Assembly (NCBI GenBank): GCA_029860345.1
Contig: JAOUBJ010000017.1
Location: forward strand, 67,501-131,500
Length of the DNA stretch: 64,000 bases
Origin: Candidatus Zixiibacteriota bacterium
GTDB taxonomy: Bacteria > Zixibacteria > MSB-5A5 > GN15 > FEB-12
Direction of reading: 5' to 3'
Shown here piece by piece: positions 4,451 to 60,822 of the stretch; position 1 is the first letter of the stretch, and each line of letters opens with the position of its first letter. The position numbers and the translations under genes are program-made. The notes under the pieces were generated by a model, which was given only the letters and a program-made list of their open reading frames with translations, was not told the origin of the DNA and ran no database searches.

Positions 4451-5199
4451 GAAAAGCTCCTTCGTGATTTTGGTTATTTTAAGCCTCGCAAAAGATACGA
4501 ACAGTGACCGCCGATTGTTGGCAACAAGAACGTCACATGGCAGATCAGGTAGGAGCATCCCTACAATCGTCCCAAAAGCTCCATATAGAGAGGGGAATAC
4601 CTGCCACTCCCCTACACGTCCCAAGCCAAGCGAGTAATCCTGCTAACATGATGCTTCAATATGGCTAAGGGAGTCGTCGTTGTCACGCAAAAAGTTGTTG
4701 GGTGGGTGGCCGTGTCCTCACCCTTCGACTGCGCTCAGGGTGACAATGGGGGCAGATGTGGACGTCTGCCGCGCACAGAAATGAGATTGCCGCGTCGCTA
4801 CGACACACGTGTCTTCGCTCCTCGCAATGACGCGCGAAGCGCGAAGAAGCCATTCATGGCCCCCTCGACTCCGCTCGGGGTGACAGGCTAGGGCAGATGT
4901 GGACGTCTGCCGCCCTTGGAAGACTGGATTCTGGCCTTCGCCAGAATGACTCAGACAGAGAAGATGGATTCCCGCCTGCGCGGGAATGACTAAGGCGGCG
5001 GGATCACAGTCCGCCGCGGCGGACTGCCCTACAAGACTAAGAGTCGGAACCCATTAGGGGGTCCCAACCTACGAAGATAGTTTTAACTTGACAATATCAT
5101 CGATATTGTAGGTCACTTATGCAACAATGACTCTCATTCGTCGATTGTCCACCTTTGATAGAGTTAGTTGTGTCGGCAGTTAATGATAAGGAGGATCGG
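4451..5199. repeat. Intergenic array of short palindromic repeats
   Basis: Several imperfect palindromes follow one another without coding potential. They include TCACCCT/AGGGTGA arms around 4717-4743, GGCAGATGTGGACGTCTGCC at 4751-4770 and again at 4892-4911, a CCCCTCGACTCCGCTCGGGG variant at 4861-4880, ATTCTGGCCTTCGCCAGAAT at 4929-4948, a CCCGCctgcGCGGG stem near 4966-4985, and GTCCGCCGCGGCGGAC at 5009-5024. The same units recur at other gaps in the window. The right end also holds the promoter region of the next operon. Confidence 0.8.
5088..5109 (+). promoter_or_regulatory. -35-like element with operator-like palindrome
   Basis: TTGACA (5088-5093) overlaps a perfect inverted repeat, ACAATATC-ATC-GATATTGT (5091-5109), about 90 bases before the lipoprotein start at 5200. 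A repressor bound here would block a promoter using this -35. No convincing -10 was found at 16-18 bases, so promoter activity is tentative. Confidence 0.4.
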
Positions 5200-5505
5200 A
5201 TGAAGAAGTTTTCCGGCCTGTTTCTGGCCTGTCTCCTGCTAATCTGTCTCGGGATCGCCTGCGAGAAAAATCAGGACGTCCCGTGGGCTGAAGCCCTTCC
5301 CGAAATCCCGGCCAGTTACGGCGAATTGGAGGCTGTGACATCGGTTCCGGAATATCCCGGCTGGTTGCAGTTGTGGTTCCAGGACGATGCGGGTACGATT
5401 CGAATCGTGCGCGTCCATTTGTTTGACAACGTGTTGCTCGACGATGTCAAGACCATTGAACGAACCGGATCGGTGGTAGAGGAGGTTGTCGAAGATGAAG
5501 GATAG
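5200..5505 (+). CDS. Small predicted lipoprotein
   Basis: A 101-residue protein starting MKKFSGLFLACLLLICLGIAC: a basic N-terminus, a hydrophobic stretch and a Cys at residue 21 suited to lipid attachment, though the -3 residue is Gly rather than Leu. The mature part is acidic with no recognised domain. The start at 5200 is preferred over upstream alternatives because AAGGAGGA lies at 5188-5195. The gene overlaps the next one by 11 bases, so the two are probably translated together at the cell envelope. Function unknown. Confidence 0.7.
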   Translation: MKKFSGLFLACLLLICLGIACEKNQDVPWAEALPEIPASYGELEAVTSVPEYPGWLQLWFQDDAGTIRIVRVHLFDNVLLDDVKTIERTGSVVEEVVEDEG

Positions 5506-5716
5506 CCACTACACAATCGTAAACCGCGCGCTGTTTCTGATAGCGGCCGCCATGTTCGTGGTAGCCATGTTGGAATGGGTGTTACGGTGGTTCGGGTATA
5601 CGCTCACCTGGCTGCCCTACGGTCCGGGTCGTCTGCTTGAGTTGGCGGCTATGATGGCGGTCTTTGTCATTATGCTATTGCTGCGGCAGATTCGCGATAT
5701 ACTTAGAAGCAAATAG
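5495..5716 (+). CDS. Small membrane protein, two transmembrane helices
   Basis: A 73-residue protein with two hydrophobic segments, roughly residues 12-31 and 45-64, and a basic C-terminal tail (RQIRDILRSK), typical of a small inner-membrane protein. The ATG at 5495 is favoured because AGGAGG (5479-5484) is about ten bases upstream; a TTG at 5486 lies too close to that site. It overlaps the preceding lipoprotein gene and likely works with it. No family is recognised. Confidence 0.65.
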   Translation: MKDSHYTIVNRALFLIAAAMFVVAMLEWVLRWFGYTLTWLPYGPGRLLELAAMMAVFVIMLLLRQIRDILRSK

Positions 5717-6083
5717 CCGGTAGCCCGAGTAACAATAGGCGTGGAGTTCATGCTTGGACTCCGCTTAGCATGAAGTCGGGTAGCCTGTGGGCTTGCCCCG
5801 GGCTTCAAGCCGTAAGTGAGCGGAAGGCAGGCTGATCGGTTCTTTAGAAATCCACCGCAAGCGGGTTGTTGAAAAAGGCCTGGCTCGCAGGTGGTGTTGG
5901 GCGACCCCGCCCGACACCTGCCGCCCAAACCAATGGCTGTCAGGCGAGTCACCTGACAGCACCTTCATCGCGAAGCACTTCACCTTGCGGTATTGAGGGT
6001 TTAGCAACAAACCGCAGGCAAATAGGCCGCCCAGAGGCAGGATCACAGGGAACCTGCTCTACAGTTCTGAATTGCGCACTCGC
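5717..6083. repeat. Intergenic region with dispersed repeat
   Basis: No credible gene is present. A GC-rich block at about 5880-5960 (including GGCGACCCCGCCCGACACC and CTGTCAGGCGAGTCACCTGACAGC) recurs as an inverted, slightly diverged copy at about 14568-14645, and part of it again at 54571-54600. The smaller palindromes inside could form stems. Confidence 0.7.
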
Positions 6084-6419
6084 TCAAGGTGGAGGCAAAC
6101 CGTCCGGAGTTGGATTGTTAAGTTGCGTCATTCGATGCCGGTGTTCTGCCTCTGTGATCCTACCTTCTGCCAGGGCAAGATTCGCCTCCGACACCGGGCG
6201 CAATTCCTCGTATTGCGCATTCGACAGTTTTATACCTACCTGACAAACCGGGCAGATGAGTAGAACGTCGCTCTCATAGGGAAACACCGGAATGAAAAAC
6301 AGTGTAAACCAGACGGACCTCTTGCATAGGTGCCAGAGGTTTTCATTATTACAATTCTCGCACTTGTGAGCGATTGCGGGTCCGTGGTCCTTAAACTTCG
6401 TGTGCCCCCAGCCAAACAA
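6084..6419 (-). CDS. Zinc-ribbon membrane-associated protein
   Basis: A protein of about 111 residues with a split zinc ribbon: CENC near residue 20 and CPVC near residue 57 enclose the hydrophobic WFTLFFIPVFPYESDVLLI. This arrangement matches the widespread small zinc-ribbon family whose members begin with an aromatic-rich FGWG sequence and continue KDHGP. The C-terminal tail is charged and may be helical. The start is uncertain. No ATG is in frame; TTG at 6419 or CTG at 6446 are possible, with GGAGG at 6435-6439. Role unknown. Confidence 0.75.
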   Translation of the reverse strand: MFGWGHTKFKDHGPAIAHKCENCNNENLWHLCKRSVWFTLFFIPVFPYESDVLLICPVCQVGIKLSNAQYEELRPVSEANLALAEGRITEAEHRHRMTQLNNPTPDGLPPP

Positions 6420-55550: not shown

Positions 55551-55683
55551 GAAAATGCCGTATATATCTATTATGGAGTGTTTTAGCCCACGCTTATCGT
55601 CGGCCGGACCTACTCGATTACAATTTCTGCACAGCTTGTGCCCTGAATCTAAGAACTGACCCTCAATCCCACGGAGGAATACA

Positions 55684-57843
55684 ATGCGAAGTCTAACAGT
55701 TATCATTCTGTTCACGATCCTTGTCACATCGGTGGCTGCTTCGGCACCATCAATAATCAACTATCAGGGTCGATTGACCGACAACGGTGTACCCGTACCG
55801 GATGCTGACTTGTCTGTAACGTTTACCATCTACGATGCCAAGGTTGGCGGTAATCCGTTGTGGACCAGGACGCAGACTGTCAGTGTCAAAGACGGTCTGT
55901 TTTCTGTGTTGCTTGGCATCCCTGCACCGATTCCGGACAGCGTCTTCGACGGCTCAACGCGCTATATGGCCTTCGCAGTTGACGGCGGGCCGGAGATGGA
56001 CGGTCGTGTGGCACTCGTATCCGTCCCCTATGCGATAAAGGTAGGCAGTGTCGACGGCGCCAGTGGCGGGAATATCACCAGCAAACTGTCGATTGGACCC
56101 TCGCACACAAACACTGGGGATCATTCTTTCATTACCGGGTCTAGCAACACCGCATCGGGTGACCATTCGGTTGTCGGCGGTGAAGGAAATACCGCTTCCG
56201 GAGCCTGGGCTGTGATTGGTGGCGGTCAGAACAACTCAAACGCGTCTCTTTTTGGTACAATCGGCGGTGGTCAGGACAACATTATTCTTGGCGGCAACCA
56301 TGTAACTATCTCTGGCGGCAAAACGAACTCGGTCGACGGGTTGTACGGCACGGTGGGAGGAGGGTTTAGCAACCAAGGGGATGCCGGCTCCACCGTTGCC
56401 GGTGGCTATGACAGTGAGGCCGTAGGCGCGTCTACGGTAGGCGGTGGTTTACGAAATACTGCGACCACCTTTCAGTCGACCATCTCCGGCGGGATCTATA
56501 ACAGAGCGGAAGACACTCTGTCGACAGTTAGTGGTGGTGGATACAATTTCGCACGGGGCGCCTTTTCGGTGGTGGCGGGAGGTGGAGGAATGTCGGACGC
56601 AGATTCCAACTCGGCAACCGGTATATATGCAGCAATCTCGGGCGGGACACGCAACGTGGCCTCGGGAGGTAAGTCGGTTGTCGGTGGTGGAGATTTTAAC
56701 ACGGCGTCAAATACATTCGCCACCGTAGCAGGTGGCTGGGCCTGCCTGGCCGGGGCTGACTTTGCGACTGTTGGCGGAGGATTTGACAACGATGCGATCG
56801 GTAACCGTTCCGTTGCATCCGGCGGTAAGTGGAACCGGGCCAACTCGGACGCTTCCACCATTGCAGGCGGTCACGGAAACCAAACACACGCCACAGGGGC
56901 AACAGTCGGTGGAGGGGGGCGCAACAGAGCGTCCGGTGACTTCTCAGTTATAGCCGGAGGTGGTGGCTACTCAGTGTCTGACTCGAATACGACCACCGGC
57001 TTTAACTCGGCGATAGGGGGTGGTCGCAAGAATCTGGCAGGCGGAGATTGGTCCGTCGTCTCTGGTGGCTCAAACAATGTAGCCGAAGGGTGGGGCGCAA
57101 CTGTTTCCGGAGGAGCATACAACTCTGCGAACGGCGATTTCGCTGTCGTGGGTGGAGGGGGGTCCGATTCTCCAGCCGATTCCAACTCCGCTTCGGGAGG
57201 CGGCGCGACCGTTCCGGGGGGATTGCGAAACGTGGCATCAGGGTTCGGATCGTTTGCCGCCGGTGTCGGTGCCCATGCGATATCGAATTTTAGTTTTGCC
57301 TGGGCGGACAATCCGGGAGTGAGCACTCCCTTCGAGGCGGTCGTCCCGCGGTCCTTCATAATTCGGGCCAGTGGCGGTGTTGGAATCGGAACCAATGAGC
57401 CGCTGGCTGATCTCCACGTCAACGGCAATATCTGTTACACAGGTTCTATTGGAGCCTGCTCCGACAAACGCTATAAGAAAAACATCTCCAATCTGAGCGG
57501 CAGTCTGGACAAGGTCCTCAAAATGCGGGGGGTTAGTTACGACTGGAATCAAGTGGATTATCCGAAGCACGACTTTGACGACCAAAAACATCTCGGATTC
57601 ATCGCGCAGGAAGTTGAAGAACTGTATCCTGAGATGGTGATGACTGACAAGAACGGTTACAAGTCTGTCGATTACTCCCGCCTCACCCCTGTGCTGGTCG
57701 AAGCTATCAAAGAACAGCAAGAGCAGATCAAGTCACAAAACGCACAAATCGAAACACAGCAGGCCCAGCTTGATAAACTCCAGGTCCTGGTCAATAATCT
57801 GGTGTCAATGACCCAATCGAGCATGACACTATCAAAAAAGTAA
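55684..57843 (+). CDS. Secreted fibre with YadA-head-like repeats and S74 chaperone domain
   Basis: A 719-residue exported protein. After the signal peptide (MRSLTVIILFTILVTSVAAS), residues about 22-125 form a module starting INYQGRLTDNG and ending VPYAIKVG. Residues about 140-560 hold some twenty imperfect repeats with GGG or GG then N-x-A-S-G (for example VVGGEGNTASGAW), as in trimeric adhesin heads. The GVGIGTNEPLADLHVNG stalk leads into an S74 intramolecular chaperone: Ser593 in CSDKRYKKNI, GFIAQEVEELYPEMV and YSRLTPVLVEAIKEQQEQI, then a coiled coil. The chaperone normally trims itself off after trimer folding. GGAGG precedes the ATG. Likely a trimeric cell-surface fibre. Confidence 0.88.
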   Translation: MRSLTVIILFTILVTSVAASAPSIINYQGRLTDNGVPVPDADLSVTFTIYDAKVGGNPLWTRTQTVSVKDGLFSVLLGIPAPIPDSVFDGSTRYMAFAVDGGPEMDGRVALVSVPYAIKVGSVDGASGGNITSKLSIGPSHTNTGDHSFITGSSNTASGDHSVVGGEGNTASGAWAVIGGGQNNSNASLFGTIGGGQDNIILGGNHVTISGGKTNSVDGLYGTVGGGFSNQGDAGSTVAGGYDSEAVGASTVGGGLRNTATTFQSTISGGIYNRAEDTLSTVSGGGYNFARGAFSVVAGGGGMSDADSNSATGIYAAISGGTRNVASGGKSVVGGGDFNTASNTFATVAGGWACLAGADFATVGGGFDNDAIGNRSVASGGKWNRANSDASTIAGGHGNQTHATGATVGGGGRNRASGDFSVIAGGGGYSVSDSNTTTGFNSAIGGGRKNLAGGDWSVVSGGSNNVAEGWGATVSGGAYNSANGDFAVVGGGGSDSPADSNSASGGGATVPGGLRNVASGFGSFAAGVGAHAISNFSFAWADNPGVSTPFEAVVPRSFIIRASGGVGIGTNEPLADLHVNGNICYTGSIGACSDKRYKKNISNLSGSLDKVLKMRGVSYDWNQVDYPKHDFDDQKHLGFIAQEVEELYPEMVMTDKNGYKSVDYSRLTPVLVEAIKEQQEQIKSQNAQIETQQAQLDKLQVLVNNLVSMTQSSMTLSKK

Positions 57844-58016: not shown

Positions 58017-59138
58017 ATGTCTCCGAAGATTCTGTTTTCAATCATCTGTATCTCACTCCTTTCTGCCAACATTCCAGCTGATGTTCCAAACGTGGTTAAC
58101 TATCAGGGACGCCTGACGGAGGCATCGGGTGATCCAGTGGCCGACGATGCTTATCTGGTTAAGTTCATTATCTATGATGACCCGATTGCGGGCGCCGAAA
58201 TCTGGAACTCGAATTTTCAGACCATAAACACTTCCAATGGCCTATTCACTTACCTGTTGGGAAGCAACGAAACATTGCCGGTCGGAATCTTTTCGGACAC
58301 AAACAGATACCTCGCCCTTACTCTCGGCACCAACCCTGAATCAACCCCCCGTTCGCAGTTCAATACAGTTTCATATGCCTTTGAAGCACAAAACGCGTCT
58401 GATGCCGATTCACTCGGTGGACTTGATCCTTCGTTCTATCTTGACTGGGATAACCTGACAAATGTCCCGCCCGCTTTCGACGATGACACCCTTGACAGTT
58501 GGGAAATCCTTGATGAACCTGGGATCGCAGCCAACAGGTGGGGCGGCACTATAGTTCTTAGTCAGACTACCACGGTTATGACCGATCTTCGAACCGTGAC
58601 TATTAGCATACCAGCACCCGGATATATAGTGGTAAACGGACACACCGATCTCCACCTTCGAGGGACCACTGGTAGGAATCAAGTCAAACTTCAAATCGAT
58701 GAGACTATTGGCGGCAGCGCTGTGGGGTCGTACGATTCTCATACGGGGTTTGAAGCTGCTCCCAATACCTCGACGATCTACTATTCCGCAGACGTTAGCA
58801 GGATCTATTTCAAGTTCGAGGGACAGTATACATTTAGGTTGGAGGCTGTGGCGCATCATTTGAACAATGGGGATGCTGTTTCAGAGTGTGGTGGGCCTAC
58901 AATAGTGGCAACTTATTTCCCAACCTCCTATGGATTTGTGTCTACCGTCGGCCAGGATCCCCCGGCTGATATAGAGAGTCAGTTGATTGAGATAACCAAC
59001 CCGGACGGCTCGACCGAACAGACATATCAGTACGACCTTCGCGATCTGGAGCTTAGAGCAAAGGAAGCACGGCTCAAGGCTCAAGAAGCTGAGTTGGAGC
59101 TTCTAAAAGCGAAGCAGCAGGGCGCTTCAGGCAGGTGA
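58017..59138 (+). CDS. Secreted protein sharing the fibre's N-terminal module
   Basis: A 373-residue exported protein. The signal peptide (MSPKILFSIICISLLSANIPA) is followed by the same module as the fibre (VNYQGRLTEASGDPV, then FIIYDDPIAGAEIWN, ending VSYAFEAQNASDADSLGG). Residues about 180-310 form a beta-rich jelly-roll-like region (TVTISIPAPGYIVVNGHTD), and the last 45 residues are a charged coiled coil (YDLRDLELRAKEARLKAQEA). It has no S74 domain. GGGAGGG lies before the ATG. Probably a multimeric surface protein built on the same base. Confidence 0.75.
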   Translation: MSPKILFSIICISLLSANIPADVPNVVNYQGRLTEASGDPVADDAYLVKFIIYDDPIAGAEIWNSNFQTINTSNGLFTYLLGSNETLPVGIFSDTNRYLALTLGTNPESTPRSQFNTVSYAFEAQNASDADSLGGLDPSFYLDWDNLTNVPPAFDDDTLDSWEILDEPGIAANRWGGTIVLSQTTTVMTDLRTVTISIPAPGYIVVNGHTDLHLRGTTGRNQVKLQIDETIGGSAVGSYDSHTGFEAAPNTSTIYYSADVSRIYFKFEGQYTFRLEAVAHHLNNGDAVSECGGPTIVATYFPTSYGFVSTVGQDPPADIESQLIEITNPDGSTEQTYQYDLRDLELRAKEARLKAQEAELELLKAKQQGASGR

Positions 59139-59262: not shown

Positions 59263-59688
59263 ATGAAACGACTAATTACTTTGTCACTTGCTTTGATACT
59301 AGGAGTCGCCGTCGGTACTACGATGTTGATGCCAAGGAATGCCGAAGCGGTGGGTGGTCTGCTCTTTGGCCAGGCGGAACTTATTGAATTCAGTAATGAT
59401 CAGGTTGTGAACCGGGTAGTAGTACGAATCAATAAAGGATGGCTCAACTCAGATAACTTCACTTTGGGCATTACAATCACAGGACTCAACGACGGTCCTC
59501 ACGAACATGGATATCAGGAGGTCCATTTGAGAACCACCGAAGTCCTAGGCACTGAAAACAATACTGCTTATGTTGGTATCGATTGGAACACAGACATCGC
59601 ACCGACTCACAGTTCGGAGACTTATACTGTTTGCGTTAAGATCATGAACAACGGAGCCGAGACGTGTAATGACTTTGGACCTTACTAA
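59263..59688 (+). CDS. Small secreted protein, tandem paralogue 1
   Basis: A 141-residue exported protein (signal MKRLITLSLALILGVAVGTT, cleaved near AEAV). The mature part is beta-rich with RINKGWLNSDNFTLGITITG, then YVGIDWNTD and SETYTVCVKI, two Cys late in the chain. It is the first of three paralogues with matching signal peptides, and its leader carries GCCC-CCAG-GGGC (59237-59248) before AAGGA. Family not recognised. Confidence 0.8.
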   Translation: MKRLITLSLALILGVAVGTTMLMPRNAEAVGGLLFGQAELIEFSNDQVVNRVVVRINKGWLNSDNFTLGITITGLNDGPHEHGYQEVHLRTTEVLGTENNTAYVGIDWNTDIAPTHSSETYTVCVKIMNNGAETCNDFGPY

Positions 59689-59821
59689 GCATCAAAGTAT
59701 ACACCCGAAAAAGTCATAGAACTTGCCGGCAGAGCAGGTGAAGAAACCGGCATACACTTCTGCCTGAAATAACCAAGACGAAACGTAACAAAACTGCCCC
59801 CAGGGGCGGAAGGAAACGATC

Positions 59822-60262
59822 ATGAAACGACTAATCACTCTATCACTCGCTTTGATACTAGGAGTCGCCGTCGGCACTACGATGATGATGCCGAACGATG
59901 CCGAAGCTATCGATGCTAAACTAACGGGGCTTCCTGTATCTCTTAATGCTGATGGGTTAGAGGTATTCTCTCTCGTTGTGGAAGTCAAAAAAGGCTGGGT
60001 AAATACTGACAATATCGCGTTAGACATAACAATTGAAGGTTTCAACAACACGGTTTCATTCCGTGGGCGTCAGGTAGTTCCCATGTCAATGACGAGCATC
60101 TTCCCTGATACGGATGAGAGAGACTTAGTCCACGTGTTAGTTGAATGGAATGATGCCGCTCGTAATGTCCATGCCGAAGTATATGAAGTGTGTGTTCAGG
60201 TTCTGGCAGGAGGGATACCACTGGGTGGAAACGAATGTGATATTTTCAGCGTGGTTCAATAG
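59822..60262 (+). CDS. Small secreted protein, tandem paralogue 2
   Basis: A 146-residue paralogue. Its signal peptide is nearly identical to that of copy 1, while the mature sequence has diverged, keeping the frame EVKKGWVNTDNIALDITIEG, VHVLVEWND and YEVCVQVLAGG. The leader (59778-59821) matches that of copy 1 almost exactly, including the GCCC/GGGC stem (59796-59807). Two Cys residues are kept. Confidence 0.8.
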   Translation: MKRLITLSLALILGVAVGTTMMMPNDAEAIDAKLTGLPVSLNADGLEVFSLVVEVKKGWVNTDNIALDITIEGFNNTVSFRGRQVVPMSMTSIFPDTDERDLVHVLVEWNDAARNVHAEVYEVCVQVLAGGIPLGGNECDIFSVVQ

Positions 60263-60393
60263 ACTACCACCGGGAGACAAAGTGCTCCCCAACATCTATA
60301 TGATTCCCCAACGAGGAAACTGAGGCTCAGTTCTGCCAGCAATAGGCAAGACGAAACGTAACAAACTGCCCTCAGGGGCGGAAGGAAACGATC

Positions 60394-60822
60394 ATGAAAC
60401 GACTAATCACTCTATCACTTGCTTTGGTTCTGGTGTTTGCGCTGGCGACGTCATTGTTGGTGCCGAAGGAGGCTGAAGCGGTCGCAGCTACGCTAACGGG
60501 TATTCCTCTGGCGATTGAATTTGGTGGCACCCTCCAAATTCAGTACGTATTGATTGAAGTAAAAAGAGGCTGGTTAAATGGTGCAGCCTTTGAATTAGAT
60601 ATCGAGATCACTGGTGTAAACGGTGTGCCTCAAGACCATGGGCATAGGAGGGTTCCTCTTTCCTCTGGTACTGTCTTTTCTGCCGATAGAGACATCGCCC
60701 ACGTCGTGATTCCGTGGGATGATCCAGGCTCACAGAACACCGATGAGACTTACACTGTAACCGTTCAGGTGCTGGCACAAGGGACACCACTGGGCTTTCC
60801 TATTTCTAGACCATTCGAATAG
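60394..60822 (+). CDS. Small secreted protein, tandem paralogue 3
   Basis: A 142-residue paralogue. The signal peptide departs after residue 11 (MKRLITLSLALVLVFALATS). The mature part retains VLIEVKRGWLNGAAFELDIE, HVVIPWDD and YTVTVQVLAQGTPLG but has no Cys, unlike copies 1 and 2. The leader hairpin (60368-60379) keeps the stem and changes one loop base (TCAG for CCAG). Confidence 0.8.
   Translation: MKRLITLSLALVLVFALATSLLVPKEAEAVAATLTGIPLAIEFGGTLQIQYVLIEVKRGWLNGAAFELDIEITGVNGVPQDHGHRRVPLSSGTVFSADRDIAHVVIPWDDPGSQNTDETYTVTVQVLAQGTPLGFPISRPFE

Follow-up and report, generated by a model that had tools for sequence, protein, structure and literature searches.

The fibre gene and its neighbours

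The window, which is the whole 64,000-nucleotide stretch of Candidatus Zixiibacteriota DNA that was analysed, contains an intact open reading frame on the forward strand (55684–57843) that begins with ATG, has no internal stop codon and encodes a fibre protein of 719 amino acids. A GGAGG sequence lies just 5′ of the ATG (55673–55677). The sequence-only reading had proposed that a Sec signal, an INYQGRLT module, head repeats and an intact S74 domain occur in a single chain, and all of these are indeed encoded by this one frame. The Sec signal peptide (amino acids 1–19; 55684–55740), recognized by inspection, lacks a lipobox cysteine. It is followed by an N-terminal domain (hereafter N-domain; amino acids 22–124; 55747–56055), which is predicted to form a β-sandwich and is proposed to be the cell-side docking module. 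The INYQGRLT sequence itself (amino acids 25–32) is present as described, although it marks only the start of a domain some 100 residues long and does not constitute a module of its own. The next region (amino acids 145–530; 56116–57273) consists of about 21–24 head repeats of 15 residues that conform to GGGxNxAxG. A stalk (amino acids 562–592; 57367–57459; GGVGIGTNEPLADLHVNG) that aligns with the stalk and S74 domain of myelin regulatory factor (MyRF; PDB 7DC3) precedes the predicted cleavage site. The remainder of the protein (amino acids 593–719; 57460–57840) comprises a Peptidase_S74 intramolecular chaperone and a long C-terminal helix, with the cut predicted to fall before Ser593. Apart from S74, a Pfam scan of the 719-residue protein detected no domain, neither a YadA anchor nor a T9SS tail, which agrees with the earlier statement that a YadA-type membrane anchor is absent.

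A second gene on the same strand (58017–59138) encodes a 373-residue N-domain protein that lacks S74 and ends in EILDEPG...YFPTSYG. Directly downstream, again on the same strand, three small secreted paralogues of 141, 146 and 142 amino acids are arranged in tandem (59263–60822). Their G+C content is lower (about 0.48), and a search of the rest of the genome and of 131 further genomes from the phylum gave no other copies. The neighbouring genes encode MetH, MTHFR, a ROK kinase, a nitrilase, a nucleotidyltransferase, a DUF899 protein and a group-1 glycosyltransferase.

Domains of the fibre protein

The S74 domain (PF13884) matches at amino acids 593–652 with an E-value of 2.1e-17 and a score of 63.6 bits against a cut-off of 22. 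Ser593, Asp594 and Lys598 form an SDxxxK motif in which the catalytic pair is intact, as the sequence-only reading had maintained for Ser593, and the stalk motif GGVGIGTNEPLADL lies ahead of Ser593. The catalytic serine is retained in 50 of 53 aligned S74 rows (the others have threonine twice and cysteine once), and the lysine in all 51 rows that have a letter at that position. One of the seven S74 domains in the same genome, that of the paralogue at G000:C5:227511-229394 (L009:5512-7392), carries threonine in place of the catalytic serine (TDTKVKTN); two relatives have threonine or cysteine there.

The repeat region was reported to contain about twenty GGGxN-type units. A simple pattern identifies 21 copies, some long repeats having 21 residues, and the period of 15 residues is evident from an identity autocorrelation of 0.28 at lag 15, compared with a maximum of 0.178 in 500 shuffled sequences. 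By sequence, the region matches the head of UspA1 (PDB 3PR7) with an E-value of 2e-18. A search of phages with the head region gave no match, a result in which a low-complexity filter may hide matches. The AlphaFold model of the full-length monomer is of moderate quality (pLDDT 66.8, pTM 0.34) and includes the head repeats as regular short β strands, while the stalk (amino acids 562–592) falls in a low-confidence region. The top fold matches of this model are the MyRF S74 chains of 7DC3 (probability 1.00, E-value 0.015); the UspA1/YadA head is absent among the fold matches listed for it.

The N-domain of about 100 residues, which is found in 26 proteins of the same genome, was modelled as a β-sandwich with pLDDT above 90 for most of its first ~90 residues. 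Fold searches of the PDB and a viral library returned no match at E ≤ 0.001, only generic β-sandwiches. Seven N-domains, with signal peptides removed, were compared with the NCBIfam profile Bdello_MAT_N, which has a cut-off of 60 bits. The matches are confined to the profile's first half. The fibre protein scored 15.7 bits (E-value 0.0097); the neighbour encoded at 58017 (E-value 9.9e-7) and the best-scoring paralogue (38.0 bits, 1.3e-9) also fell below the cut-off. The genome as a whole yields 23 matches to Bdello_MAT_N at E ≤ 0.01, none of which exceeds the cut-off. Since these scores lie well under it, the N-domain is set outside the curated family, and we conclude from the profile comparisons that it is best regarded as a distant relative of Bdello_MAT_N.

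A mosaic family in the genome and the phylum

A sequence search of the genome (4.76 Mb in 35 contigs) identified 26 N-domain proteins. The N-domain always comes first, right behind a hydrophobic leader (26 of 26), and after the signal peptide it is the only part that all of these proteins share. Seven S74 domains occur in the genome, all within N-domain proteins, and 19 of the 26 lack one. The C-termini are of the S74 type in seven proteins, EILDEPG...YFPTSYG in seven, SDLAEPF...VLVNLQ in five and IDHPxDPENRYL in four, and three are singletons; in the iterative search that gave these counts, head repeats common to both made the S74 and SDLAEPF sets match each other, and the two were split by their end sequences. 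Runs of at least ten head repeats are seen in proteins with ends of the S74, SDLAEPF and IDHP types. We describe the pattern as mosaic because a constant N-domain is joined to varied stalks and C-termini. The SDLAEPF and IDHP tips have no sequence relative in the PDB, and the IDHP tip weakly matches a phage tail PHROG. A TNF-like assignment for the EILDEPG...YFPTSYG tip, as in some tips of the MAT (mosaic adhesive trimer) fibres of Bdellovibrio, was dropped after a PDB profile search gave nothing. Among the 22 of the 26 proteins that were scanned with Pfam, none contains a T9SS or autotransporter anchor domain. Six N-domain fibre genes lie within ~25 kb of contig C5 (G000:C5:222800-247400; L009, L010), a possible repertoire locus.

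The closest named relatives of the N-domain belong to Candidatus Zixiibacteriota; further relatives occur in Saganbacteria/WOR-1, Polyangiaceae/Myxococcales, Verrucomicrobia and Phycisphaerales. Of 41 genomes searched, counting the one under study, 39 contain a match to the N-domain profile and 25 contain S74; for the phylum, S74 is found in 71 of 110 genomes. The sequence-only reading had proposed a search for INYQGRLT together with S74 in other genomes, and the combination was found: outside the genome under study, 32 of 42 S74 frames (20 + 12) have an N-domain in the same frame, and several of the remainder are broken or lie at contig ends. N-domain, head repeats and S74 also recur in one chain in other Zixibacterial proteins. 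Among IMG/VR contigs, L106–L113 encode secreted INYQGRLT-domain proteins, and in L107 such a gene (4929–6257) has genes for portal, head protease and major head proteins around it. It therefore seems that the module is present, apparently as cargo, in phages of some bacteria.

In a tree of S74 domains (135 columns, eight phage sequences sampled), the S74 domain of the fibre protein pairs with another from the same family (support 98/91), apart from the eight phage sequences. The protein that contains the partner domain has a different middle region that lacks head repeats. Because the S74 domains pair despite different middle regions, stalks appear to have been exchanged within the lineage. 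It had been suggested that a cellular fibre adopted S74 from a phage. The cellular, non-prophage character of the gene holds up; adoption from phage is not demonstrated, as the tree gives no direction of transfer.

A secreted fibre and its possible anchoring

We consider it likely that the fibre gene belongs to a lineage-wide family of secreted mosaic fibres in Candidatus Zixiibacteriota that work like MAT fibres. The protein would be exported through the Sec pathway, as its signal peptide suggests. Three chains would then fold together from the C-terminus, with S74 acting as an intramolecular chaperone as expected from its family. Through Ser593 and Lys598 of the SDxxxK motif, S74 is predicted to remove itself before Ser593, which would leave a mature fibre of approximately residues 20–592. 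The 15-residue repeats, homologous by sequence to adhesin heads, would form a head-type β-roll that serves as a stalk or as an adhesive surface and may bind. The N-terminal β-sandwich may hold the fibre at the cell surface via a partner, and the modularity of the paralogues is consistent with stalks and tips being swapped between them.

Three other explanations deserve consideration. The gene could be a remnant of a prophage or tailocin, that is, a phage tail fibre whose frame happened to stay open, and its S74 domain and stalk do match phage tail-fibre PHROGs. This origin is very improbable: the protein has a Sec signal, PHROG scans found no phage gene cluster near the gene (as had been noted from the sequence), and the N-domain was not found in 50,697 phage records. 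Moreover, the 26 paralogues are scattered across the genome, and the N-domain and S74 are found across the phylum. Because the surrounding genes are housekeeping genes, we do not regard the fibre gene as a prophage remnant. The UspA1-like head repeats could instead mark a decaying gene for a type Vc trimeric autotransporter that has lost its membrane anchor. We give this little credence too, since no YadA anchor domain appears in the 22 family members scanned with Pfam, and the combination of N-domain, head and S74 is kept in other genomes with Ser and Lys conserved.

A less remote, though still unlikely, alternative is a secreted fibre that is not anchored at all (matrix, ice-binding or sheath), in which the N-domain would be a trimer cap or a secretion element rather than a docking module. 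No anchor is evident in the protein, the fold of the N-domain has no informative relative, and the β-roll of one paralogue weakly matches an ice-binding β-roll family, below the cut-off. However, the N-domain is the sole universally kept part, as it is in surface-displayed MAT fibres.

Beyond the mosaic fibre family favoured here, we put forward more tentatively, and at somewhat less than even odds, that the INYQGRLT/MAT-like N-domain serves diderm bacteria of several phyla as a general docking module, is recognized by one conserved receptor and is carried by some phages as cargo. If so, Zixibacteria, Saganbacteria/WOR-1, Myxococcota, Verrucomicrobia and Bdellovibrio would all use it to display interchangeable phage-like and adhesin-like fibres. 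As the N-domain is the common part, genomes that encode it should also have its partner in conserved form, and the question of how mosaic fibres are anchored becomes approachable.

Bdellovibrio bacteriovorus has 21 MAT fibres, each with a signal peptide, a conserved N-domain of ~130 amino acids and a trimeric fibre (Caulton et al. 2024, PMC10769870). Thirteen of the 21 contain S74, for which serine-dependent autocleavage has been proven; the fibres are displayed on the cell surface and function in prey recognition, and no cell-surface partner of the N-domain is named (PMC10769870). The S74 subgroup (e.g., Bd3182) resembles the Zixibacterial protein in that a signal peptide leads directly into a conserved, β-rich N-domain, followed by a long β fibre and a C-terminal S74 domain with SDxxxK. 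Both systems include many paralogues with exchanged tips, with and without S74 (7 and 19 of 26 here), and in both the N-domain lacks PDB relatives and a named anchor partner. By analogy, the fibre protein probably works like the prey-recognition fibres of Bdellovibrio. It differs in its host, a member of the Zixibacteria, in an N-domain that scores below the NCBIfam cut-off, in a main part built of UspA1/YadA-type head repeats, and in the other non-S74 tips of its family.

The remaining relatives share individual parts. Phage tail fibres and spikes (K1F endosialidase, 3GW6; T5 pb1, 4UW8) have S74 with Ser/Lys and a preceding stalk, whereas the Zixibacterial fibre adds a Sec signal and an N-domain and lacks a phage gene context. 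The ICA domain of MyRF (7DC3) shares the stalk motif and the Ser/Lys of S74 but belongs to a eukaryotic transcription factor. The trimeric autotransporters UspA1 and YadA have the same 15-residue GGGxN-type head repeats (3PR7), and the Zixibacterial fibre ends in S74 instead of a YadA membrane anchor; head repeats of trimeric autotransporters are thereby joined to a phage chaperone in one protein. Because MAT fibres had already established the concept, the novelty of a cellular fibre with S74 is reduced, and the Zixibacterial fibre extends a known kind rather than beginning a new one. The new elements are the phylum, how large the repertoire is, a stalk of autotransporter-type head repeats, and the tips other than S74. 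With them, mosaic fibres of the MAT style reach from a predatory bacterium into an uncultured phylum whose repertoires are large, as the 26 members in a single genome illustrate.
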